From contig NC_019702.1 in the NCBI RefSeq assembly GCF_000317085.1, positions 124,001 to 188,000 of the forward strand: DNA of 64,000 nt, given 5' to 3'. The first letter of the stretch is position 1. Each line of letters begins with the position of its first letter. Source of the stretch: Synechococcus sp. PCC 7502 (lineage in GTDB: Bacteria; Cyanobacteriota; Cyanobacteriia; Pseudanabaenales; Pseudanabaenaceae). Shown here one piece after another: positions 19,272 through 44,462 of this stretch. The notes under the pieces were generated by a model. It made no database searches and was not told where the DNA came from. It saw nothing but the letters and a program-made list of their open reading frames with translations. The position numbers and the translations under genes are program-made.

Positions 19272-19393
19272 ACAGCAACTTTAATAAATAATAGTGATTA
19301 ATGGTGCTTACTTAGTCTAAGGCAAACCTTGATACCAGTTCCCAAGTTTAGAAATATAAAAGATTTATCTGCCAAATAAAACCTTAATAAAGA

Positions 19394-19544
19394 TTAGTAT
19401 TAAAGACTTTTTCTGCCGATCGCACCAGAGTTTCTATTAATTTTGCGACTAATTTTTCATAGCTTAATTTATCGTCCAATAATTCTTCTAAGCTAGTAAT
19501 TGGCTGATCTTCTATAAAAATTGCTTTTAACAATGGGCGATCGC
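19394..19544 (-). repeat. detached copy of the 3' end of the lipoate-ligase gene (direct repeat, left copy)
   Basis: These 151 bases match 23761-23911 with no gap and about eight mismatches by eye. Read on the minus strand they still encode an intact C-terminus (RPLLKAIFIEDQPITS ... ending NTNLY and a stop). No upstream part of the gene remains. The copy begins exactly at a HIP1 octamer (19537-19544), and the right copy reaches the same octamer. Together the copies bracket the PIN/HsdS/HsdM cassette. Confidence 0.9.
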
Positions 19545-19557
19545 GCAATATCAAGTA

Positions 19558-19971
19558 TCAATTTCTCATCAAAGGCTTATAACCCGCCTGTTCAAAGTGT
19601 TTGTCGTAGGCAAGAGCCTCAGAAATTCCCATATCCTCCATTATTTTGAAAGATACACAATCTGTGTAACTCCATGCTTTGTCTTTTCGTTGTTGATATA
19701 GTCTCAAGCCTTGTTCAAATTGCTCACTAGTTTGGGGAACAATACGGACATTGTGGTTAGAACGCAAGTTTTGAGTTAGCTCTATGGCTAAATCACGGAA
19801 ATACTCACCACGTTTAGAGAAGTCGTTTAAAACTTCGATGAGGACGGCTTCACTGGTGACGATGTAGGCGGGATGCAATGTTTTTGATAGCTGAACAGCT
19901 TTTTTATGCAAATTATCACTAGGGTTAAGTAGGGCAACCCAATAACCTGTATCGGCGAAAACGACTCTCAC
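19558..19971 (-). CDS. PIN-domain ribonuclease (VapC-like)
   Basis: This 137-residue PIN-domain protein carries acidic active-site residues at Asp7 (FADTGYW), Glu46 (LIEVLNDF), Asp104 (YTDCVSF) and Asp123 (AYDKHF), as in VapC toxins that cleave RNA. Its GTG start overlaps the hsdS stop by one base (TAGTG), so it is translationally coupled as the last gene of the restriction-modification operon. No antitoxin-sized frame is adjacent. It may be a VapC whose antitoxin lies elsewhere, or an accessory nuclease of the cassette. Confidence 0.78.
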   Translation of the reverse strand: MRVVFADTGYWVALLNPSDNLHKKAVQLSKTLHPAYIVTSEAVLIEVLNDFSKRGEYFRDLAIELTQNLRSNHNVRIVPQTSEQFEQGLRLYQQRKDKAWSYTDCVSFKIMEDMGISEALAYDKHFEQAGYKPLMRN

Positions 19972-21611
19972 TAACTATCCTGTTGCTGTTGATAATGGTC
20001 AAAGTTTTGGGCTAAGTCTTTTGGCAGTTTTGCCCATTCTTCATTAGGAATTTTGGCAGAAAGTCGCGCGGCTAATTCCCATATTGGTTCTGCATTATAG
20101 TCAAATTTAATATTTGCTAAGGAGAAGCTTTCGATAGGTGTTTGATTATTCATAGGTGTATTTGATTTAGAAGAAATTAGTTTTTCTAATTTAGAAATTG
20201 CTTCTTGTTCGTTACGCCAAGCTTGATCGCGCAGTTGGTTAGCTTTGAGAACTAGATCGCCAATTTCATTTCTAATAGGTAAGTCTGGTAGTGGAATGTG
20301 AACAGAAGCAAGCATAAATCTGTCAAATTCAAGAATCACTGAACCGTAAGCATGACGAGTCATGAGACTGTATCCGTAATCGGAAGCTAACCAAGCATAG
20401 AGATATCCAGCATTAATATCATCTGAAGCTAGCAAACGATTAGCGTGTTGATTAGCTGTCCAGTTTTCCATATACTTAGTAATGATTTGTACTCGCCCAA
20501 TTGTGCCTGAGCAGGTAACAGCAATCATATTTTCTTCGATCTGAATTTCGGGCAGGTCTTTTGTATGTGCGCCTTTTGCTAATTTTTTGACATCAATTGG
20601 ATCGACTTGAAAAAGTTGCTTACTACTTAATAGCGGAATCCCACCTTTTTCGACATAGGTTCGCGCTCGGAATTTTGTAATTGCTCTAACTTCTTTGGTG
20701 ACTCGCCGATCGCCAACTGTAGTAATTTCAACAGGTAATTTGGCTACTTGTTCTTCAGCAGCGATCGCTTCGGGATTATGAAAACTGCCCTCAAAGCGTC
20801 CCATCAATTGCGAGGCTTTGATCGTAGTCGTAAAAGATGCACTACCACGCGGAGCAATATCTTTGAGATAAGGTAAATTTAACCGTTCATGGAGAAGGCG
20901 ATCGGCTTCGTCTAACAAATGATTTGCTTCATCACGCAATTCTCCCGCTTGGCACATCAAACGTCCAATTTCAATTCGGCGAATCGGCGGTAAATCAGGA
21001 ATTTGTACTCTGTTGAGATGTTTAAGTTCAATATGAACAATAACTGAGCCATAGGTAGCTTGAGTAAGCTGAGGACGACCATATCGACTACGCAAAAATG
21101 CTGCAATAAAACCTGCTACATCTTGATTGTCTGCACTTAGACGAATCACATCTTCTGAAATAGCTTTTCCTGTGAAAGCCTCATTTGCTAAAGCTATGTT
21201 ACCTATTGTTCCAGAACGTGAAATTAATACATCCCACTTCTGGACTGATAACATAGCCGAATTTCGAGTGTATTTACGGCTTAGGAAACGATCAGTTTTA
21301 GGGCGTACACTGATAATATCAGAACTGGAAAGAAATGGAATACCATGTTCAGCATTTACATAAATTCGCTTAAAACGAAAAGCGTTATGTGCTTCTTGAC
21401 AAAGCCCACCTTCACCGTAAAGCGGTATGAGCGGTAAACCACTATTTGTCAAAGCTGTAACTGCATTATGAGCCTCAATGCTAAAAGCAGAAGCCTCTAA
21501 GCGCACACCAGCAGCAAATACTTCACTGAGTTTGATCGTCGTTGACAGTTTCTCCGACTCATCATCAGGTATCTCTGGCGTGTAATCAGGTTTAAAAGCG
21601 TAACTTACCAT
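19971..21611 (-). CDS. hsdS: type I restriction-modification DNA specificity subunit HsdS
   Basis: This specificity subunit of about 546 residues has two target-recognition domains, each with the pattern GIP(F/L)LSS ... (V/A)xxSGTIG (WDVLISRSGTIGNIAL and MIAVTCSGTIGRVQII). Each is followed by a conserved helical spacer (EIGRLMCQAGELRDEANHLL and EIGDLVLKANQLRDQAW). A tandem-domain S subunit recognises a bipartite DNA site and positions the methylase. I chose the ATG at 21611, which overlaps the hsdM stop as ATGGTAA and has an AAGGTGG site upstream. An ATG at 21635 is also possible and adds eight residues. Confidence 0.9.
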   Translation of the reverse strand: MVSYAFKPDYTPEIPDDESEKLSTTIKLSEVFAAGVRLEASAFSIEAHNAVTALTNSGLPLIPLYGEGGLCQEAHNAFRFKRIYVNAEHGIPFLSSSDIISVRPKTDRFLSRKYTRNSAMLSVQKWDVLISRSGTIGNIALANEAFTGKAISEDVIRLSADNQDVAGFIAAFLRSRYGRPQLTQATYGSVIVHIELKHLNRVQIPDLPPIRRIEIGRLMCQAGELRDEANHLLDEADRLLHERLNLPYLKDIAPRGSASFTTTIKASQLMGRFEGSFHNPEAIAAEEQVAKLPVEITTVGDRRVTKEVRAITKFRARTYVEKGGIPLLSSKQLFQVDPIDVKKLAKGAHTKDLPEIQIEENMIAVTCSGTIGRVQIITKYMENWTANQHANRLLASDDINAGYLYAWLASDYGYSLMTRHAYGSVILEFDRFMLASVHIPLPDLPIRNEIGDLVLKANQLRDQAWRNEQEAISKLEKLISSKSNTPMNNQTPIESFSLANIKFDYNAEPIWELAARLSAKIPNEEWAKLPKDLAQNFDHYQQQQDS

Positions 21612-23587
21612 CCTAATACCACCTTTTTCTTCCACTCAATAAACTCGGTAGCAATATCCCCAGTATCATCATCCTTTACTTTTTCTTGGGGTATCGGTCT
21701 AACTGTACCGTTGCCTGTCGCTGTTCTTTCCAGCAAGGGAATTGACTCTGGATCGGCTGGCACTAGTATCTCCTCTCCTTCTTCATTGCGTTTGTAAGTT
21801 GTGTTACCTCGTTTATCTTGCCCGATCGCCTTTACCTGCGCCATAAATATTTCATAATCAGGCATTGTCCCTTGATCGATTTCCTTTTCAGTCTTCTTCT
21901 GAAGAATCAAAACCGAAGTTTGCGTCCCATTCCGAGGCTGAAAAGTATCAGGGTGTAGATCAATCGAAGCAACAATTCGGCAATGCTTAATCAACCAATA
22001 ACGCACATAAATCAAACCAGGAGCGCCCAAAATTGCATCAGGTAAAACTATTCCCATCCGTCCTTTGGGCTTCAGAAATTGCCAGCATCTTTCAATAAAT
22101 AGGATTTCGGGAGATGCTGAGCCTTGAAGTTGTTCTGTCGGCTCCCAACCAGACTCAGTTTCTTTCCAAACATGGGCAAGCTGATATTGCTTTAAGGTTT
22201 CTTCGTCCTTAATTGGCAGCTTTGAACCAAAAGGTGGATTTGTTGCAATTAGATCAAAATGACCCAGATCTTTTTCACTGCGTAGAGTTTTGGGGTCGAT
22301 ATCTAAAGCCTTTGCAAATTGCTTGCGAAAACTATCTTCCCATTGATGAGGATGTAACAAAGAATCTTGTCTAAGAATATTTCCAGAGCCATCATTGTTC
22401 ATCACCATATTCATCTTGGTAGCCTTCACAAGATCTGGATTAATATCAATCCCAAAGAAATTAGCTTTAGCTGTTTCTTGAATTTTAGAATTCAGTGCAT
22501 TTTGCATCCAAGGATCTGACTGCTCAGTTACTCCTGCTTGTAGTTTTAACTTTTTAATGACTTCATTCATCGCAATTACCAGAAAGCCACCCGTCCCACA
22601 GGATTGATCGAGAATCCTATCTGTGATTTTTGGCGCAAGCATCCGAATTGTCATATTTTGAACATTCCGAGGTGTGAAAAATTCACCGCGATCGCCCCTT
22701 AAATTTGCGCCAACAAGCTCCTCATAAGCTTTCCCTTTAACATCAATATTCGTACTCAGAAAGCTGTAGCGTTGAAGCTCACCGATGATATAGGCGAGAG
22801 AACGTGGTTGAAGTTTGATCTCATCATTCGCATCAAAAATAGCAGGGTATTGCTTTTTAACTGCACTAAAAATCTTGCTAATACGATTGAAAACAGTTAA
22901 TCGACCATCATTACTCTTTTTCTCCTTTGCTGTTGCATAAAACTCTAAAGGATTAGGAAAATTACGTTCATCATGAATCTTGCAAAAAATAACCTTTAAA
23001 AGCTCAAAAAAGGCAGGCTGTTTTTGTAGTCCATCCGTTACATAAATATGATCGTGGCAAATTTTAAAAGAAAACAGTAAATTGTCCCCAACTGCATTCT
23101 TTAAAGCATCACGAGTTGGGCGATCAACTTCCTCAACATTGCCATTCTTGGAAGGGATATCATTAGGCTCTTCATACTCAATGCCTTCCTCTGTTCTAAT
23201 GCGGCGCAAAACAGTTTTTTTCTTGCCGTTTGTCCACATTCCCCATTCAGAGTTATCACAAGCCGCCATATAAGATCGAAGTTGCTCAATCCCGTCTTTG
23301 CTTGCAGATGGTGATATTGAGTCTTTTTTGCACTCAATGATGATCCAAATATTTTCCTGATTGTGTTGATCCCCCTCACGGAAAATAGCCAGATCGACTC
23401 GAACACTCTTACTACCCTGCTTAATTGGATACTCAACCTCAATCTGTTCTGGCAAATAGCCAAGCTCCAGCACCAAACGACGCTCGATGTTTTGACGAAC
23501 ATACTCTTCGGGCGTATCGTTACGGATTTTCTGATCTATGAAATCACAGACCTTACCATCTGGAAGTGTTGCTAAGAGCTTGGACAT
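21605..23587 (-). CDS. hsdM: N6-adenine DNA methyltransferase HsdM with N-terminal PD-(D/E)XK (HsdR_N-like) domain
   Basis: This 660-residue fusion is the first gene of the cassette. Residues about 25-130 look like the nuclease-fold N-terminus of HsdR: VRVDLAIF with Asp65, then IIIECKK with Glu85 and Lys87, the PD-(D/E)XK triad. The rest is a type I methylase: GEFFTPRNV, motif I DQSCGTGGFLV near 327-337, and motif IV NPPFGSK near 449. The expected activity is adenine methylation guided by HsdS. No HsdR with its helicase translocase follows, so cleavage, if any, would have to come from the fused domain. The domain may instead be inactive. Confidence 0.88.
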   Translation of the reverse strand: MSKLLATLPDGKVCDFIDQKIRNDTPEEYVRQNIERRLVLELGYLPEQIEVEYPIKQGSKSVRVDLAIFREGDQHNQENIWIIIECKKDSISPSASKDGIEQLRSYMAACDNSEWGMWTNGKKKTVLRRIRTEEGIEYEEPNDIPSKNGNVEEVDRPTRDALKNAVGDNLLFSFKICHDHIYVTDGLQKQPAFFELLKVIFCKIHDERNFPNPLEFYATAKEKKSNDGRLTVFNRISKIFSAVKKQYPAIFDANDEIKLQPRSLAYIIGELQRYSFLSTNIDVKGKAYEELVGANLRGDRGEFFTPRNVQNMTIRMLAPKITDRILDQSCGTGGFLVIAMNEVIKKLKLQAGVTEQSDPWMQNALNSKIQETAKANFFGIDINPDLVKATKMNMVMNNDGSGNILRQDSLLHPHQWEDSFRKQFAKALDIDPKTLRSEKDLGHFDLIATNPPFGSKLPIKDEETLKQYQLAHVWKETESGWEPTEQLQGSASPEILFIERCWQFLKPKGRMGIVLPDAILGAPGLIYVRYWLIKHCRIVASIDLHPDTFQPRNGTQTSVLILQKKTEKEIDQGTMPDYEIFMAQVKAIGQDKRGNTTYKRNEEGEEILVPADPESIPLLERTATGNGTVRPIPQEKVKDDDTGDIATEFIEWKKKVVLGW

Positions 23588-23747
23588 TGCCTTTACGTCA
23601 AAACCTCAAGAAAATTTACTTTCTTTACAGTTTTACCAGTAATTGATCATTAATCAAGACTAATAATTGATTTTATAGTTAATAATTTATTTTTTACCCT
23701 GAAATCTAAGCAACATTATCAAGGCATGCCAAGATATTCATATATCA

Positions 23748-24461
23748 CTAAGACAAAAATTTAGTATTAAAGGTTCTTCCAGCCGATCGCACCAGAGTTT
23801 CTATTAATTTTGAGACTAATTTTTCATAACTTAATTTATAGTCCAATAATTCTTCTAAGCTAGTAATTGGCTGATCTTCTATAAAAATTGCTTTTAACAA
23901 TGGGCGATCGCATTGAATTTGAATAGAACCATGCTGAAGCACAGCAGTATGATTAGCACCCCGCCGATAAACTTGAGCACTACCAATTAATTTCAAGCCA
24001 TCCTCTGTAACTAAATCTGCATTTGTAGCTGTAGCAAAACAACTAGGATTATGAATGTATCCCCGTCCTGCACTGCCATAACTGAGGTTTATCCCTAACT
24101 CAGCAAATCCTGCAATTAAAAATTCACAAATATAGATATACATAGCTTGACGGCTGCGATCGCCTAGTTCGGTAATGATGCTATAGGTTAAATCGCCCTT
24201 ATGGACTACAGACCTGCCACCACTGGGACGACGGACAATATCTAAACCTAAATCTTGAGCTATTTCATGCCAGCGATCTGGAATTTTATGCTGATGATGT
24301 CCTAAGGAAATTGCCGCAGGTTCCCAGCTATAGAAGCGTAAGCTAGAAATGGGGTTGCTAGATTGACAATGCTGATCCAGTAGCGATTCATCTTTAGCCA
24401 TGTGTTCGGCTCCAGTTGCTACGGAGTAGGGAATTAACTGCCAAGGGTTAAGACTTAGCAT
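23748..24461 (-). CDS. lipoate--protein ligase family protein
   Basis: This 237-residue protein of the BPL/LplA/LipB fold attaches lipoyl or octanoyl groups to carrier domains. The hallmark RRPSGGRSVVHKGDLTYS lies near residue 80, preceded by the SWEPAAISLGHHQ segment. It may act as ligase or octanoyltransferase (LipM-like); sequence alone does not decide. The last roughly 50 codons (23761-23911) are duplicated at 19394-19544. The two copies differ near the stop (NTKFLS here, NTNLY there), so the C-terminus here may be a replaced one. The gene is intact. Confidence 0.82.
   Translation of the reverse strand: MLSLNPWQLIPYSVATGAEHMAKDESLLDQHCQSSNPISSLRFYSWEPAAISLGHHQHKIPDRWHEIAQDLGLDIVRRPSGGRSVVHKGDLTYSIITELGDRSRQAMYIYICEFLIAGFAELGINLSYGSAGRGYIHNPSCFATATNADLVTEDGLKLIGSAQVYRRGANHTAVLQHGSIQIQCDRPLLKAIFIEDQPITSLEELLDYKLSYEKLVSKLIETLVRSAGRTFNTKFLS
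23761..23911 (-). repeat. 3' end of the lipoate-ligase gene (direct repeat, right copy)
   Basis: This is the right-hand partner of 19394-19544, lying inside the intact lipoate-ligase gene. The same 151 bases end at the HIP1 octamer GCGATCGC (23904-23911), beyond which the two copies diverge at once. On the other side they diverge after the TTAGTATTAA at 23761. The spacing between the copies is about 4.37 kb and contains only the restriction-modification/PIN operon. Confidence 0.9.
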
Positions 24462-36980: not shown

Positions 36981-37121
36981 ATGCAAATTCTTTGGTTTTT
37001 CCCTACTAATCGAGACCTGCGTTATCTAAACTCAGATATTGGCTCACGGGCGATGACTCCTGAATATTTACAACAGTTAGCGATCGCCCAGTTAATGATT
37101 TGCAAGGCGATCGTCCAATAG
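36981..37121 (+). pseudogene. 5' stump of an alkanesulfonate monooxygenase (ssuD) gene
   Basis: A 46-codon frame starts at ATG 36981 with MQILWFFPTNRDLRYLNSD and has EYLQQLAIAQL. This corresponds to the opening of SsuD-type FMNH2-dependent monooxygenases (MQIFWFxPTxGDxRYLG ... YLQQIAxAAD). After about 40 matching residues it ends in unrelated residues and a TAG at 37119-37121, one base before the end of darG. The rest of the enzyme is missing, so this is a truncated relic, probably cut by arrival of the neighbouring island. Confidence 0.65.
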
Positions 37122-37122
37122 A

Positions 37123-38190
37123 TCAAAACATCACCCCGTTTAAAGTATTGAATTTTGGTAGCCAACCAGCCTCATGCAATCGCTCCCACGCTACATGAAT
37201 ATGACGGAATTCAAACATCCGTTTTCTCGTATTCCAATCATAGATCTTGGCGACAGCTAATTCTGCGGTTGTCGCTTCTTCTCGCGTGGCAACCCAATGC
37301 ACCGTTGATAGTAATTCCATTCCAAAAGTTGTTTCAAATCCTTTAATCAGATCGGCAACACGATCAAACCTGAGCCTTGTGGACTCATGCTCTGCAAGAA
37401 AGTTTTCGGCTTGCTCAAAAGCATTAGGAATCAATTCTAGAGGCTTGTCTGGTCGATCTTCAGCATCGCCATAGCCACTGATAAAATGCCCTTCAATATA
37501 ACTGAGAACATGGCGTAGATTTTCTGCGTAGGGACCATAGGGAGCCTTTTGGTAATTTAGTCGCAGAGGTTCGCCAGATTCCTGCATGAAGTACATAAGC
37601 TTATGCACTTCTAACAGGGTAACGGTAGGGTCCATAACAGCAGATAAGTAGCGGCGCATCAGTCCTAATAGAGCGGCTCGTCCCACAGTCATATTTGGAA
37701 CTTTACTCTCTTTGACCATTGACTTAGCTTGAGGCGCACCTATAGGCTCAAATAGCAAAACAGCTACTTCTGGTAGGGACTGAAAAGCTTCAATAATTAG
37801 TGGACGCACATCTTCCCAGTTCAGTCCACCTAAACCACAACCTAATGGAGGAATTGCGATCGAGCGAATCTGATGTTGCTTTACCACATTTATTAAATCT
37901 TCTAGCCCAGCCTTAATGTCTTCGATGTGGCTTTTGCCTCTCCAGTGGCGCTTAGTAGGAAAGTTGATGATGAAGCGAGGAGCATATAAACGATTAAGGT
38001 CATATACAAACATTTTGCCTGCTTGTACTTCGTTGGCTTTGCAAGCGGCTTCATAAACTTTGAAATTTTCTGGAAATGCTTTTCGGAATTGTAGTGCAAT
38101 TCCACGTCCCATAACGCCAACACAATTGACGGTGTTAACCAACGCTTCTGTGTCAGCTTTGAGGATGTCGCCTTGGGTTAGCTCAATCAT
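37123..38190 (-). CDS. darG: DarG antitoxin (macro-domain ADP-ribosyl-thymidine hydrolase)
   Basis: This protein of about 355 residues is the antitoxin of the DarTG pair. The N-terminal macro domain has VNTVNCVGVMGRGIALQF and PPLGCGLGGLNW, which bind ADP-ribose and remove it from thymidine in DNA. The C-terminal half (LLGLMRRYLSAVMDPTVTLLE onward) matches the DarG region that contacts and neutralises the toxin. I use the ATG at 38190 (MIELTQGDIL); the longer TTG-started frame to 38220 overlaps darT. It follows darT on the same strand, and its stop lies against an ssuD stump. Confidence 0.9.
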   Translation of the reverse strand: MIELTQGDILKADTEALVNTVNCVGVMGRGIALQFRKAFPENFKVYEAACKANEVQAGKMFVYDLNRLYAPRFIINFPTKRHWRGKSHIEDIKAGLEDLINVVKQHQIRSIAIPPLGCGLGGLNWEDVRPLIIEAFQSLPEVAVLLFEPIGAPQAKSMVKESKVPNMTVGRAALLGLMRRYLSAVMDPTVTLLEVHKLMYFMQESGEPLRLNYQKAPYGPYAENLRHVLSYIEGHFISGYGDAEDRPDKPLELIPNAFEQAENFLAEHESTRLRFDRVADLIKGFETTFGMELLSTVHWVATREEATTAELAVAKIYDWNTRKRMFEFRHIHVAWERLHEAGWLPKFNTLNGVMF

Positions 38191-38207
38191 GAGTTTAGCG
38201 TCTGCGC

Positions 38208-38858
38208 TCAGAAATACCAATTAGGTTCTACGGCTATAACTGGTTTGTGGGCGACATTTGCTAAAGTCGTCTTAACCTTTGTTGCCATCGTACTATTGAT
38301 TATCCCAATTTTTTCGATCAATGTCCACGGAAAGACATTAAACATCAAAAACTCTGCTTGTTTGCCTTCCTTGATTTTAGCATCACGAAAATCTGAAGAA
38401 GAAACAGCGCCCCAGTCAATCTCGTTAAGTTTAGAGGGGTGATTGTAAAAGTTAGTCAAGCGAGAGCCTGCATTACCATTACTAAAAGCCCAATTTACGC
38501 TGTTTGAATTTGCCCAATTAATGACTTTATGGAAGTCGGCTTGTAGATGAACTATCGGTTGTTGACCTCCTTTATAGCTAATATCTGGATGGTTTCCCAT
38601 GTGCAGCATAAAAAGCATTATTGAACGTGGACAGAAATAAAAAGGTACATACTGTCCAACCATTGTTTTGGGATGACATGGGACTTCTATCTCTTTGAGT
38701 CTTCTTTCTTTGATAGTGGACATCCCCACCAATGAGGAAGAAAGACTTCTTGTTATGCGAGTTGCATCTGAAACTAATCCCATATTGGCTGCAATGTTCG
38801 GCAGGTTTTCGATATGGGTAATGTGATAAATCTTGGGACTGGGAGGAACTGATGCCAT
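38208..38858 (-). CDS. darT: DarT toxin (DNA thymidine ADP-ribosyltransferase, DUF4433)
   Basis: This 216-residue toxin is of the DarT family, which transfers ADP-ribose from NAD to thymidine in single-stranded DNA. The N-terminal NAD-binding block is KIYHITHIENLPNIA. The segment VPFYFCPRSIMLFMLH is typical. The catalytic glutamate is Glu169 in GKQAEFLMFN. All key regions look intact, so the toxin should be active and needs DarG. It lies 13 bases after a 475-residue gene of unknown function and 17 bases before darG, suggesting a three-gene operon. Confidence 0.9.
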   Translation of the reverse strand: MASVPPSPKIYHITHIENLPNIAANMGLVSDATRITRSLSSSLVGMSTIKERRLKEIEVPCHPKTMVGQYVPFYFCPRSIMLFMLHMGNHPDISYKGGQQPIVHLQADFHKVINWANSNSVNWAFSNGNAGSRLTNFYNHPSKLNEIDWGAVSSSDFRDAKIKEGKQAEFLMFNVFPWTLIEKIGIINSTMATKVKTTLANVAHKPVIAVEPNWYF

Positions 38859-38871
38859 TTAATTACCCAAA

Positions 38872-40299
38872 TTAGTTTATTGTCTGTCGTACAGGCTTTT
38901 GAAGTGGATACTCTTGATCATGGACACTAAACATATTTATACTTTTTAAGATGCCAAGCTCTTCAGAGATTTCTACTACTCTAGCTGCATCCTCATCAGT
39001 CCAATCTGTTGTATCAATATACATAACATCTTCAGATCGAATGCCATTGTCAAACCCTGTCTCGGTAGCTATTCCAACAATATGTTGAGCATCGGGAAAC
39101 TTAAGTCTCACTGTTTTGCAGTAAATCTCCAAAATATTTCTACGTGTTTCCCTATATTCTTCGTAAGTCATCCAGTCAACTTTTGGAAGTAATAGGAAAA
39201 CGTAGTATGGTTCTTGGGGAGACGAGGAACAAAGACAACGGGTTGCAAGCATATGCCTTGGCGCTAGCTTTATTAGTCCACAAAGAGCTGCTGCAAGATT
39301 TCTACGCCGAAAGCGTGGTTCTCTTGCCAAGAAACGAAGAAGAATTTCATTCGATTTAACGTCAGAATGAGTTGTATAGTATTGAGTCTCTTCCATAAGG
39401 TTCTTATTGAAGCTCTCAATTAAACCATCCCAAGCATAGCTAATTTTATCTGCGAAGACTTGAGCTTGCCGTTCGGGGCTTTGGCTAAATTCTTCCCACA
39501 AACCTTCGTCAAAAACAAGATTAGTTGTTTGTTTATCAAAATTAGGTGGAGCAATAAAATCATGCTCACTCTCCTCATTCATATTTGTGAGGTAATAAGT
39601 CAGCAACTCTTCCTCACCTGCTGCAAAAACAAGTGTATCAGATCTAAGAAATTTCTCTTTTTTAACTAAGTAAGAAACAAAATCTGAAATAGTATCTAAT
39701 GTGCCTAAAACAATATCCAAAGATGTGTCACCAAGAACATGTACAAATGTACGACTTGGATCGATGTCCCCAATAAAGAATGGAACATCATCATTTTCAT
39801 TTACATAATGAGCATCACCTTTAATAGAAGTATTAATCATAAGGCTACCACTACCACCAAGCTCCTGTTGACAGCGACTAGAATTATCATGAGCAACTAC
39901 AATTAGATGGAATTTTGCCGTTGATAAATCAGGTATATCAATAGGAAAAGGTATAGTACATGAGCGATCTAAGAAAAGGCGATTTTGGGTTTTCTTAATC
40001 CATCCTTCAGCACCCCACACTTGATCTGCGGATTTTTGTATTGCTCTTTTAAACCATCGATTCCAATCGAGAGCAAGTCGATCAGTATTTGGGAACTGAC
40101 AATCTTTATCTGAGAAAATAATGATGTGATTCTCGAAAACCACTAGCAGATCACATACTTCTTTCCCCTCAGTTATTCCGCCTGAAATTTGGTCTCTATA
40201 TACCCCTGAATAGCTCCAAAGCGATAAAAATGTCCGATCACAAAGAACCTTTAAGTATCGTTCAGATTCAGTAATACCATCTGCGCGTTTGATAGACAT
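38872..40299 (-). CDS. uncharacterised protein linked to DarTG, possible nuclease-like N-terminus
   Basis: This 475-residue soluble protein is of a family I cannot name. Residues about 40-70 read EGKEVCDLLVVF, then IIIFSDKDCQF, a strand-turn-strand layout like NERD or PD-(D/E)XK folds, but the usual (D/E)xK is replaced by SDK. DLALDW-like LALDWNRWFKRAI follows. A middle part has FIGDIDPSRTFVHVLGD, and the C-terminal part has VFLLLPKVDWMTYEEYRETRR and GIATETGF. There is no signal or membrane segment. It is the first gene of a unit continuing with darT (13 bases) and darG, so a role with the toxin or in phage defence is plausible but unproven. Confidence 0.55.
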   Translation of the reverse strand: MSIKRADGITESERYLKVLCDRTFLSLWSYSGVYRDQISGGITEGKEVCDLLVVFENHIIIFSDKDCQFPNTDRLALDWNRWFKRAIQKSADQVWGAEGWIKKTQNRLFLDRSCTIPFPIDIPDLSTAKFHLIVVAHDNSSRCQQELGGSGSLMINTSIKGDAHYVNENDDVPFFIGDIDPSRTFVHVLGDTSLDIVLGTLDTISDFVSYLVKKEKFLRSDTLVFAAGEEELLTYYLTNMNEESEHDFIAPPNFDKQTTNLVFDEGLWEEFSQSPERQAQVFADKISYAWDGLIESFNKNLMEETQYYTTHSDVKSNEILLRFLAREPRFRRRNLAAALCGLIKLAPRHMLATRCLCSSSPQEPYYVFLLLPKVDWMTYEEYRETRRNILEIYCKTVRLKFPDAQHIVGIATETGFDNGIRSEDVMYIDTTDWTDEDAARVVEISEELGILKSINMFSVHDQEYPLQKPVRQTIN

Positions 40300-40389
40300 A
40301 AATAAATTTGGATATTTACAAGTTTAAAAAAGTGGCTATTATTTGCTTCTCCTCTTAGCTTGGACAAGAATCAGAGAACATTATAAATT

Positions 40390-40737
40390 TCATAAGCCCA
40401 GACAATATTTAACCGTTGTCTCTATCTCTTCCATTTTTTCTGGAGAGAGCATTCCTACTGGCTGATCTAGAAATCGTGAAGCATCAAGCGATCGCAGTTG
40501 AAAGCATAAAAAGACGGTTTCCAGTGGTAAACCACTTTCTGATGGAGAAACTCTAACATTGGTAGGATAATCTCTCGTAATGTTTGCCCCTTTCGTTCCT
40601 ACAACAACAGTCACGACGAGGGGAAGACGATTAATATCATCAATGGAAAGAACTAAAACAGGTCTTGTGCCACTTTGCTCTCTGCCAGCAGTTGGATTGA
40701 GGTTTACAAAGTAGATTTGAGATCGCAATATAGCCAT
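40390..40737 (-). CDS. MazF/PemK-family toxin
   Basis: This 115-residue protein has the PemK-like core QIYFVNLNPTAGREQSGTRPVLVLS, LPLVVTVVVGTK and the C-terminal LSPEKMEEIETTVKYCLGL helix. Family members are ribosome-independent or -dependent mRNA endonucleases. It starts three bases after the stop of the small gene upstream, its likely antitoxin. It differs clearly from the other MazF-like toxin at 28685-29047. Confidence 0.84.
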   Translation of the reverse strand: MAILRSQIYFVNLNPTAGREQSGTRPVLVLSIDDINRLPLVVTVVVGTKGANITRDYPTNVRVSPSESGLPLETVFLCFQLRSLDASRFLDQPVGMLSPEKMEEIETTVKYCLGL

Positions 40738-40740
40738 AAT

Positions 40741-40962
40741 TCAAAGACCATCAAAATCTGTAACAGCAAACTCTTGCTGAATCTGAGAAAGCTCAGCTTG
40801 AATTTGCGGATCTTGTGCCATTGCCGCTAATTCATTCTTAATCCGAATTTGATGCGCTATATGCTCTAAAAGCCATAACTGCTCAGTTAGATTGAGAGCA
40901 TCTATAGATTTAGCAATTACTTTAAGATTACTTGACTTTTCCTTAATCAGCATATTTTCCAC
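40741..40962 (-). CDS. putative antitoxin paired with the MazF-like toxin
   Basis: This 73-residue, mostly helical protein (LNLTEQLWLLEHIAHQIRIKNEL) has an acidic tail ending VTDFDGL. It resembles small cyanobacterial antitoxin-like proteins found before MazF or RelE toxins, but no DNA-binding motif stands out. The GTG at 40962 has GGAG about five bases upstream; an ATG at 40953 is possible. Its start overlaps the end of a broken antitoxin gene (40943-41157). Assignment rests mainly on position before the toxin. Confidence 0.6.
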   Translation of the reverse strand: MENMLIKEKSSNLKVIAKSIDALNLTEQLWLLEHIAHQIRIKNELAAMAQDPQIQAELSQIQQEFAVTDFDGL

Positions 40963-41157
40963 TTAGCTCCGTCCGATTTTCCCACACGCCAATTAACCCA
41001 GAATTCAATAATTGACGCGCAGTAAAATTTTTTTTAGGCTCAGACGAGGCGAAAATGAAACTACTATGTCAACCTGTTGACCTTGAGAAACAGGCAGATC
41101 GCATAGATGAATTTCACTATCTTTTTCTATAGTTCGTTGTAACCGAATTGATTGCAT
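40943..41157 (-). pseudogene. frameshifted small antitoxin gene (VapB-like)
   Basis: From ATG 41157 the frame reads MQSIRLQRTIEKDSEIHL...LPVSQGQQVDIVV, the N-terminus of a common cyanobacterial antitoxin family. At a run of eight A (minus strand, about 41028-41035) the frame goes to an early stop at 41005. With one more A the other frame continues NFTARQLLNSGLIGVW and ENRTELSGKYAD, stopping at 40943, which is the expected C-terminus. No matching VapC-type toxin follows. It is either a dead relic or a length-variable homopolymer. Confidence 0.65.
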
Positions 41158-41232
41158 AGCTTTATATTTCCCGCTTGTGCATACATTCTTAAAGCGTATT
41201 TTTAGATTATAGCTGAATTCAACCTCTTAGTA

Positions 41233-41376
41233 ATTTAGGTGATTAGATAGAAAGTTTTTACCTAATCACCTAAATTTTCATATTAGGATAAATATTTACA
41301 ACTATTCCGTAAGTCCTAAGAACATGCGCTTATTAGAATCAAAAAGTATTCCTTCGTCAACTCATCCGAATTATAT
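41233..41376 (-). repeat. hairpin plus degenerate nrdJ 3'-end copy (left copy)
   Basis: A perfect 15-base inverted repeat (AATTTAGGTGATTAG at 41233-41247 and its complement at 41263-41277) is followed at about 41319-41376 by a decayed copy of the nrdJ C-terminal codons. The blocks GAACATGCGCTTATTAGAATCA and TCAACTCATCCGAATTAT match 41918-41939 and 41963-41980 at a constant offset of about 606 bases. The nrdJ-like part no longer encodes the enzyme tail in frame. Confidence 0.8.
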
Positions 41377-41388
41377 GTTTCATAGCTT

Positions 41389-41742
41389 TTAAGGCACTAG
41401 AAACTGCTCCCAACTCAAAGTACTCCACCCTAACGAGCTAATTGGAGGAATTGGTGGTATTTGAGGAATTGGAGGAATTGGTGATATCGGAGGAATTGGA
41501 GGAATCGGTGGTATTTCTGGTATCGGAGTGATTGGTCCACCAGATGCTCCTTGAATAAAAGCAACTGAGTTTCCATGACGATCGCGAAAGAATCCCTTAT
41601 TGAACCTACCAAGATACTGTCCTTGGTAGGTATAGACAGATTCATCACGAATAAATGCCCGATTTCTGTTGTTTGTATCAAGGATCACTTCATCACGGAG
41701 CCAACCTAATGTGCGTCCATTGCGGTCAAAAATAGGTTCCAT
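41389..41742 (-). CDS. 4-fold beta flower-like protein with proline/isoleucine repeat tail
   Basis: This 117-residue protein has an N-terminal 65 residues consisting of short beta repeats (DRNGRTLGWLRDEVI, GQYLGRFNKGFFRDRHG) that match what I recall as the 4-fold beta flower family, of unknown function. A low-complexity stretch of PPI/IPP repeats follows at about 72-101, written in DNA as repeated GGAATTGG/GGTGGTATT units. The C-terminus LGWSTLSWEQFLVP looks conserved. The gene lies alone between two copies of the nrdJ 3' end and hairpin, so it was probably inserted there as a cassette. Confidence 0.65.
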   Translation of the reverse strand: MEPIFDRNGRTLGWLRDEVILDTNNRNRAFIRDESVYTYQGQYLGRFNKGFFRDRHGNSVAFIQGASGGPITPIPEIPPIPPIPPISPIPPIPQIPPIPPISSLGWSTLSWEQFLVP

Positions 41743-41840
41743 ATTTTTACAATACTCTTCAGGATCACAGCTAATTTAGAGAGCTATAAACAATTAGTTT
41801 TTAGCTAGGAAGTGGGAAATAATAGCTACCTAACATAAAG

Positions 41841-41980
41841 ATTTAGGTAATTAAGTAGAAAATTTCTACCTAATCACCTGAATCATTAAGTTAGAGCGAT
41901 CTATGGCTTCTGTTCAGGGAACATACACTTATCAGAATCACAACCCGCAGGGCCCGCATCCATCAACTCACCCGAATCAT
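41841..41980 (-). repeat. hairpin plus nrdJ 3' end (right copy)
   Basis: This is the right-hand partner of 41233-41376. An imperfect hairpin (ATTTAGGTAATTAAGTAGAAA with TTTCTACCTAATCACCTGAAT, 41841-41884) lies just beyond the nrdJ stop, and the last nrdJ codons follow to about 41980. As the first structure after the stop it may end nrdJ transcription, although no clear T-run follows. Confidence 0.78.
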
Positions 41981-44204
41981 AACGCAACAAACTCGCGTAA
42001 AAATCATCAGACTTGCGACGTTCTAGTACCTCAGCACTGAGCTTCTCATAGGTAGCCTTATCGATTGGCTCAAAAGGCAACCGAGGGAAAGTTTGCAGGT
42101 CATCAAAACGCGCCAACAGCGCCGCCGAGATATAACCCTCATCATCACGAATCGCCTCGTAAATCTTCTTCCCTAAAGGCTCGATTTCATGCTCGCGCAA
42201 TTCTAAAGTTGCAGAAGTATTATGACGAGTGTAATGCTTCTGCACCTGCATATAGAAGTCAAACTGCGCCATTACATTGAACTTGCTAATTTCCACCTGA
42301 TCCGCACCGTCAAGGTCAGCCCAAGACACACTCACAGGAATCTCCACTAACCATTCTGTACATCTCGGATCGAAGGGATCATTGAGCAATTGTCCATTCT
42401 CATCCTTATCCGATTGAGAAGGAATGATGCTATAGCCATAGTCCATGCAAGCCCGCGCCACAGGATCTTCCTTACGGAAAGTAATCCGACGGATAAAGCG
42501 CTGCGCCTTCGGTGGATGCCATCCGGGGGAAGCACCAGTCAGTAAAGATTTTGTGCCTGCTGGCTGAGTTGTCGTACAACGATTCGGGCGGCGTAAGCCA
42601 TGCGCGTCGCAATATTCCCAAACCGTCTGATGTACGATTTCATGCCAGCGATTTAGATAATCAGCTTCTTTCTCTTTGAAGTCTAAACCCTGCACTGTGT
42701 CAGGACGACCTGCTTCCCACCAACGCAACCATTCCACACCAAAGGCATGAACGAAGAAGTCAAATAGTCCTGTAAATGATACGCCCACAATCGGATCGAC
42801 ATTACGGCTAAATTGATAGCGTTCTTCATTGAAGCGATGATTAAGCAACGCAGCAACCGACAAAGCACCTGCTTTAAAGGCTTCTTCCTGTTCTTTCTCA
42901 TTACGAGGATTGAGTTGATTGAGATGCACCTCGGACAAATTGCAATGGAAGTCTGCCCCAGTTATTTCACCACAGGGATTGAGAGCATAGCGCTGTAATC
43001 TATGCTCTAGCTCTCGTTCAGTGACTTCAGGTTGATGCGATCGCAACCATGTTTTGCCTTCTCCTTTCACATAGGCAGCTAAGAAATCACGCTTGAGTTC
43101 AGGAGTTGTAATCAAATCCGCATTAGAACGTGCGATCGCTTCACCCGCCCATTGAATTGCACCTTCACCTGAATAATACTGCTTGCGAACAGCATCAATA
43201 CATTCTTGCTCTGTGGGCTTGCGATGGAATACTCTCGTGTGGTTCGCCATTCTCAAAGCATCACGCTCAGGATCGATGCGCCAGTTACCCGCTTCATCCT
43301 GCTGCCAGAGATTATCCTTTGCCACAGAGCCCAAAGCATCTTCTGAAGAAAATTGGCGCATCCCCGCACTTCTTCGGATGTTACCAGCTACGATACAAAC
43401 GGCGGCTTCATCGATGAGGATGCAGCACTCAACTGAGGTGAGTTGACGACTGATCGCCTTATTTAAAATATTGGCACAGCGATCGTAGAGTGTGGGCAAC
43501 TTGACAGGATTTGCCATACCGCCGAAGCCCTTGAGGGGTTCGCCACTGGGACGAACATCGCTGATATCAACGGTGATTTGGACGGGCTTAGTTGCATCAA
43601 ATTGCTCGTCGCTAGAAAGCTCTAAAACTGTTTGGTAGGAATTAACCCAACCTTGGCGGCTATCACCAACAACAATGTTGACAGTATTGTTAGCATAGTC
43701 AAACTTTACCTCTGTATTGTGGCGACGTTGTTCGACAGGGGTTACGCCGATTGCACCGATCACGCTGACTTGTAACTGGTTGCGAATTGCAGGCAATTTA
43801 CTGATGTACTGAGGCTCTAATACGCCACCAGTACCCGATCCCTGCATGGCGAGATCCATCATCAAGCCAAAGGAGCGCCAGTCGATGACGTTAGTGCTAG
43901 TGCAGTTATAGGAGCCTGAAAAATTTTCGGGGTGATCGACCCAATCCGTACCACCGACCCACAGCCAACGCCCAGAGGTAAGGGACTTGAGCTGCTTTTG
44001 CATTTTGTCGATCAGGTCAGCTTGTTCTTGCGTAAGCTTGCCTAACGTTTTTAAACCTGTAAGTGTGCGATCGCATACCTCCGCCCAACTTTCCCGTTTA
44101 TTCTTGTATTTGCGGCTATAAGTCCTAAAAAATACAGGATAAGCAGCAGGAGCACTTTCGGGGAATCTAACTTCTTTGGAGATGCGTATTAGTTCTTGCA
44201 CCAT
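41901..44204 (-). CDS. nrdJ: adenosylcobalamin-dependent (class II) ribonucleoside-triphosphate reductase
   Basis: This 767-residue monomeric class II reductase makes deoxynucleotides with vitamin B12 and needs no oxygen. Markers are the N-terminal GRWLWVGGTDWVD, the cysteine in SYNCTSTNV, the active-site loop NPCGEI, TTTQPAGTKSLLTGASPGWHPP and the C-terminal redox pair CDSDKC just before the end. Length fits the Lactobacillus-type RTPR. A NrdR-like box lies upstream. Its 3' end is duplicated on the far side of the small gene at 41389-41742. Confidence 0.93.
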   Translation of the reverse strand: MVQELIRISKEVRFPESAPAAYPVFFRTYSRKYKNKRESWAEVCDRTLTGLKTLGKLTQEQADLIDKMQKQLKSLTSGRWLWVGGTDWVDHPENFSGSYNCTSTNVIDWRSFGLMMDLAMQGSGTGGVLEPQYISKLPAIRNQLQVSVIGAIGVTPVEQRRHNTEVKFDYANNTVNIVVGDSRQGWVNSYQTVLELSSDEQFDATKPVQITVDISDVRPSGEPLKGFGGMANPVKLPTLYDRCANILNKAISRQLTSVECCILIDEAAVCIVAGNIRRSAGMRQFSSEDALGSVAKDNLWQQDEAGNWRIDPERDALRMANHTRVFHRKPTEQECIDAVRKQYYSGEGAIQWAGEAIARSNADLITTPELKRDFLAAYVKGEGKTWLRSHQPEVTERELEHRLQRYALNPCGEITGADFHCNLSEVHLNQLNPRNEKEQEEAFKAGALSVAALLNHRFNEERYQFSRNVDPIVGVSFTGLFDFFVHAFGVEWLRWWEAGRPDTVQGLDFKEKEADYLNRWHEIVHQTVWEYCDAHGLRRPNRCTTTQPAGTKSLLTGASPGWHPPKAQRFIRRITFRKEDPVARACMDYGYSIIPSQSDKDENGQLLNDPFDPRCTEWLVEIPVSVSWADLDGADQVEISKFNVMAQFDFYMQVQKHYTRHNTSATLELREHEIEPLGKKIYEAIRDDEGYISAALLARFDDLQTFPRLPFEPIDKATYEKLSAEVLERRKSDDFYASLLRYDSGELMDAGPAGCDSDKCMFPEQKP

Positions 44205-44248
44205 AAATTCAAGTTTTTAGGTTTGTACTATTAGGTGATGAATATAGC

Positions 44249-44264
44249 ACACTGTATATAGTGG
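44249..44264 (-). promoter_or_regulatory. NrdR-box-like palindrome upstream of nrdJ
   Basis: ACACTGTATATAGTGG closely follows the NrdR consensus (ACACWATATAxxGTGT-like 16-mer). It lies 45 bases before the nrdJ start on the minus strand. NrdR represses reductase genes when dATP is plentiful. A second, weaker candidate begins near 44289. No cobalamin riboswitch pattern is visible in the 213-base gap. Confidence 0.5.
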
Positions 44265-44462
44265 TCAAGTAATTTTTTTGAGGGATTTACACACTACGGA
44301 TATATGTATAAGAGTTTACTAAATTTAAGATGAATTTAAGAATAGTAGCGATCGCTTTTGGGTAATCAAGAAAAAATTAAGATCATTAGCTAACCGTTAT
44401 TTTGACTGTGCCGACCCTTGAGATATTATGGTAGTAATCTATATCTCCATATTTCAGAACCA

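Follow-up and report, generated by a model that had tools for sequence, protein, structure and literature searches.

How does a core metabolic gene come to have a decayed copy of its own 3' end lying behind it, with an unrelated small gene in between? The question is raised by the nrdJ locus of the window, the 64,000-nucleotide stretch of DNA analysed here (Table 1). On the minus strand the order is nrdJ, a right hairpin, a gene of 117 codons, a stretch that resembles the end of nrdJ, and a left hairpin. The first-pass annotation had taken this arrangement for a one-gene cassette inserted at the end of nrdJ with duplication of the target end.

Table 1 Features of the nrdJ and lplA loci and of related loci, in window coordinates unless a locus is named.
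Feature	Coordinates	Strand	Details
Functional nrdJ (class II ribonucleotide reductase)	41901..44204	(-)	Uninterrupted; 91% nt identity to genus g5 (G010), 75% aa identity to same-genus G006
Right hairpin, 3' of functional nrdJ	41829..41895	(-)	Extended palindrome; 3' flank looks like the ancestral 5' flank in inverted orientation
4-fold beta-flower gene, 117 codons	41389..41742	(-)	PF21784; eight predicted strands and a proline-rich tail
Decayed nrdJ 3' end (old gene end)	41302..41375	(-)	23/74 substitutions, 7-nt deletion
Left hairpin	41233..41286	(-)	Continuous with ancestral downstream DNA
Ancestral downstream DNA	40968..41232	(-)	86-90% to g5; frameshifted antitoxin-like gene at 41005-41157
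g5-type tract	37079..44207	.	85-96% nt; bounded at 37079 by a HIP1 octamer and at 44207 by 14 bp of identity spanning the nrdJ start codon
Functional lplA (lipoate ligase family)	23748..24461	(-)	Second case
Inserted type I R-M (M, S) and PIN genes	19538..23648	(-)	90% to G010:C2
Duplicated lplA 3' end	19389..19544	(-)	94-95% identity; begins at HIP1 GCGATCGC
Mirror-case loci	L060 6473-7838, L061 13429-14802, L062 3406-4794		Three g5 genomes

The end of nrdJ is present twice

Over 54 nt, the two hairpin copies (41841-41894 and 41233-41286) share 80% identity, and two blocks of the nrdJ tail (41963/41357 and 41919/41320) are collinear. The copies lie 608 bases apart at the hairpin, 606 at the TCAACTCA block and 599 at the GAACAT block. 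The constant offset of about 606 bases first proposed is therefore nearly but not strictly kept, since the left copy carries a 7-nt deletion and about 9 nt of extra sequence. Alignment of the tails alone gave a similarity score of 30, as compared to a mean of 15.7 and a maximum of 28 in 2000 dinucleotide shuffles. As a like-for-like control, the 2.5 kb downstream of nrdJ was searched for similarity to the final 150 nt of the gene at 31 loci (the window and 30 relatives). The window reached z=6.0, and each of the relatives scored 2.3 or less. Hairpin identity, collinear blocks and the control score together bear out the initial observation that the hairpin and the nrdJ end occur twice.

The right copy belongs to an uninterrupted nrdJ and is functional, as had been supposed. 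The left copy was said to have lost its reading frame and indeed has none open, the frame being broken by the 7-nt deletion. Relative to the right copy, 31% of the left tail is substituted (counts of 8/10/5 by codon position), with no third-position bias. Searches for known RNA families at the hairpins returned miRNA models only, far below their cut-offs. Elsewhere in the genome the hairpin pattern occurs at control level only, and BLAST detected no other copy.

Two further features of nrdJ were observed. In many relatives (G007-G033 loci) the gene is interrupted by putative inteins at several positions that recur among them (near residues 279, 411 and 551). Just upstream of nrdJ, at 44230-44270, CACTATATACAGTGTG, which is also present in G006, resembles an NrdR box.

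The left copy is the old gene end

At least seven genomes of genus g5 carry nrdJ, a single hairpin and then the same downstream DNA, and so represent the empty site; these are the relatives with nrdJ and without the small gene that the first-pass annotation suggested looking for. The window aligns with G010 in two parts that overlap on a single hairpin. In the window, it is the left copy that runs into the ancestral downstream DNA. The left copy is thus the old 3' end; what was added is the right copy together with the beta-flower gene. Insertion behind nrdJ with duplication of the target end, as originally read, is supported by the empty sites and by this continuity. Behind the left hairpin, the antitoxin-like gene has a frameshift as compared to its g5 relatives. 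An apparent inverted copy of the ancestral downstream region within the spacer was rejected as not significant (p=0.48).

At four-fold sites of nrdJ, the window and g5 differ by 0.25-0.35. Given this value, the broken frame and the even spread of substitutions over codon positions, decay of the left tail dates back approximately as far as the divergence from the nearest g5 lineages sampled. The long decay proposed for the orphan copy accordingly stands, and the event is old rather than recent. Some of the divergence between left and right tails may already have been present between donor and recipient.

The gene between the copies is a rare beta-flower gene

The single gene expected between the copies is a genuine member of the 4-fold beta-flower family and the sole gene in 41389-41840. 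It matches PF21784 with E=8.6e-39 (133 bits against a gathering cut-off of 25), covering model positions 1-116 of 116. In an AlphaFold2 model built from four sequences (mean pLDDT 81.5), the protein forms eight strands, along with a proline-rich segment and a short terminal helix. No recombinase or transposase is encoded in the 0.6-kb insert. Beta-flower genes over the cut-off occur in 1 of 38 family genomes, the window's own, and are absent from the 37 others searched; they were found in 4 of 386 sampled phylum genomes and 3 of 390 sampled class genomes, two samples that overlap.

The closest relatives by protein are from a Cloacimonadota MAG (55%), an archaeal MAG and a Rhizobiales contig. 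In the latter (L044 974-4342), the beta-flower gene adjoins terminase-like and portal-like genes, named from their ORFs, and by this neighbourhood it may ride in a prophage. No beta-flower gene was found in plasmids, phages or viral contigs, and PDB and viral fold searches gave no match below E=0.001. A possible second copy in the genome, at C3:2682107, proved to be a low-complexity match antisense to a groEL-like tail. The first-pass annotation had also proposed looking for the same gene beside other gene ends or the same hairpin. At the four beta-flower loci examined (L042, L043, L044 and L145), neither a flanking gene-end duplicate nor the nrdJ hairpin is present. The beta-flower protein is a passenger. 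The fold has been described and placed in the tubby clan, with no known function (PMC10584680); a lipid- or envelope-associated role, drawn from the tubby-like clan, is only a guess.

The locus lies within a tract shared with another genus

The genome of the window has been placed in genus g1. The tract around nrdJ is nevertheless 85-96% identical to g5 where aligned, as compared to mostly 65-77% in its flanks, and the nrdJ protein is 96% identical to that of G010 and 75% to that of same-genus G006. On the right, the tract ends in 14 identical bp, TTTATGGTGCAAGA, at the start codon of nrdJ; further upstream the window resembles G006. The left edge falls on AGCGATCGC, common to G010 and G018, and the DNA outside it is unrelated. 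By these identities, the whole nrdJ-to-darG block is a 7.1-kb import from another genus. Behind nrdJ, g5 genomes carry a variable toxin-antitoxin-like run, several ending at darT/darG (most names are from ORFs).

A second displaced gene end, and a mirror case

A scan of gene ends in the window revealed a second case. The final 151-156 nt of lplA are repeated at 19544-19389 with 94-95% identity, and type I R-M and PIN genes lie between. The same R-M/PIN block stands at an unrelated place in G010, with 90% identity. The joint between the block and the lplA duplicate is the 7-bp CGATCGC, the HIP1 core, which G010, the duplicate and lplA all carry. Because the G010 block does not adjoin lplA, an lplA-anchored donor is as yet unseen. 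The first 71 nt of the duplicate equal lplA and the differences cluster at its 3' end, a pattern that fits both two alleles joined by crossover and uneven decay. The lplA duplication is fresher than the nrdJ event.

Three g5 genomes (G032, G013 and G025) show the mirror image: the 5' end of nrdJ is present in decayed form, then come small genes and then functional nrdJ. The nrdJ, lplA and 5' mirror cases have a common form: a functional gene, foreign genes and a displaced old gene end.

Homology-facilitated illegitimate recombination as the probable origin of the locus

We consider it probable, with moderate confidence, that one end of the foreign DNA was joined by homology and the other end illegitimately, displacing the old nrdJ end. 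The incoming fragment would have held an nrdJ 3' end, the hairpin and the beta-flower gene, and the recipient nrdJ locus would have been ordinary. Anchored via homology within nrdJ, the fragment would have been joined at its far side to a site in the recipient's own nrdJ tail. Functional nrdJ would thereafter end in the incoming tail and hairpin, while the old tail, hairpin and downstream DNA would be displaced behind the new gene and the useless tail would decay. The homologous anchor and the donor molecule are parts of this scheme that we infer, as is the action of the same process at nrdJ as in the lplA case.

This explanation is favoured because it directly yields a functional gene, foreign genes and a displaced old end. 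The old flank is kept beside the foreign DNA, and one joint, inside the nrdJ tail, is non-homologous. The lplA case lends support, as a relative holds the R-M block elsewhere and the joint lies on the shared CGATCGC; a second example in the same window also suggests a general way of joining DNA and not an element. We count the interspecies import at the nrdJ locus itself and the 5' mirror case in its favour. Against it, no donor with nrdJ, hairpin and beta-flower gene in a row was found, and gene-end fossils are rare: there is one clear case and no other clean one among 372 ORFs of a 457-kb sample, at a threshold (E<1e-4) that misses the nrdJ fossil itself.

A different and rather unlikely route is template switching at the hairpin, in which copying would stall at the palindrome, fold back, copy foreign beta-flower DNA and re-enter upstream in the nrdJ tail, so that tail and hairpin are recopied. 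It would account for the 3' flank of the right hairpin, where CTAACATAA plus GCT approximates the ancestral 5' flank in inverted form (p about 0.007 if the match may fall at any position in the spacer, and less with a fixed register). However, a donor hairpin of that shape explains the flank equally well, the lplA case has no such hairpin, and the route leaves unsaid how the foreign DNA came to hand.

A small circle bearing the nrdJ tail, hairpin and beta-flower gene could also have integrated by a single crossover (Campbell-type) or site-specifically, in the manner of elements that enter at 3' gene ends and restore the gene; the end state would be the same, with functional gene end, insert and displaced old end. 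With no recombinase in the insert, no such flanking repeats at the beta-flower relatives and no match in plasmids or phages, we find it improbable. Tandem duplication of the whole of nrdJ, with most of the second copy then lost and the beta-flower gene inserted in a separate event, is compatible with the remaining tail, and relatives do hold 5' nrdJ fossils. It too is improbable, as it needs more events and its two-copy intermediate is absent in the 34 family genomes with nrdJ matches.

A mobile hairpin-flanked cassette, integron-like or transposon-like, is suggested by the position of the gene between two hairpins and would make the one-gene cassette of the first-pass annotation a mobile unit, but it is very improbable, since the hairpin is unique in the genome, the insert has no recombinase, the duplicated part is mostly nrdJ coding DNA common to empty sites, and both the 7.1-kb import and the second case in the window argue otherwise.

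HIP1 octamers at the edges of imported DNA

The HIP1 octamer GCGATCGC occurs 86 times in the window, as compared to 0.29 expected, an abundance that would suggest a cyanobacterium. PMC4390886 describes the palindrome as over-represented and notes earlier reports linking it to site-specific and illegitimate recombination. The tract edges at 19538 and 37079, two of the few that are resolved, fall exactly on HIP1, although only 1.6% of positions are no more than 2 bp away from a copy. As these two edges were noticed after the fact, we treat the link as a hypothesis. Tentatively, and at less than even likelihood, HIP1 octamers may be recurrent joints for DNA of other genera, with imported defence and orphan genes piling up behind housekeeping genes and the displaced ends serving as datable scars.

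The nrdJ locus shows that a core metabolic gene can be a landing point for foreign genes and keep its function, and that the history of such an event can be read from the gene end it displaced. If the HIP1 link is true, an octamer of open purpose gains a testable role as a joint for imported DNA.

Comparison with known systems

The window gene resembles the described beta-flower family (PF21784; PMC10584680) in its full-length match, 4-fold type and eight predicted strands, and differs in being rare in its phylum and in sitting behind nrdJ. With regard to the HIP1 literature (PMC4390886), the octamer here marks two edges of DNA common to two genera.

Homology-facilitated illegitimate recombination is reported from competent Acinetobacter, Pseudomonas stutzeri and S. 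pneumoniae, in work cited in PMC5361080 and PMC2884548. The likeness lies in one homologous and one illegitimate joint; the process was seen there in experiments, whereas here it is inferred from old genome scars, with the lplA joint on the HIP1 core. In the orphan immunity arrays of V. cholerae T6SS/Rhs loci, displaced effector 3' ends have been attributed to a proposed mechanism akin to this process (PMC5361080). As at nrdJ, the anchor is a conserved gene part and the old 3' end is pushed downstream. In contrast to those arrays, the anchor here is a core metabolic gene of unchanged function, and the passenger is an unrelated small gene.
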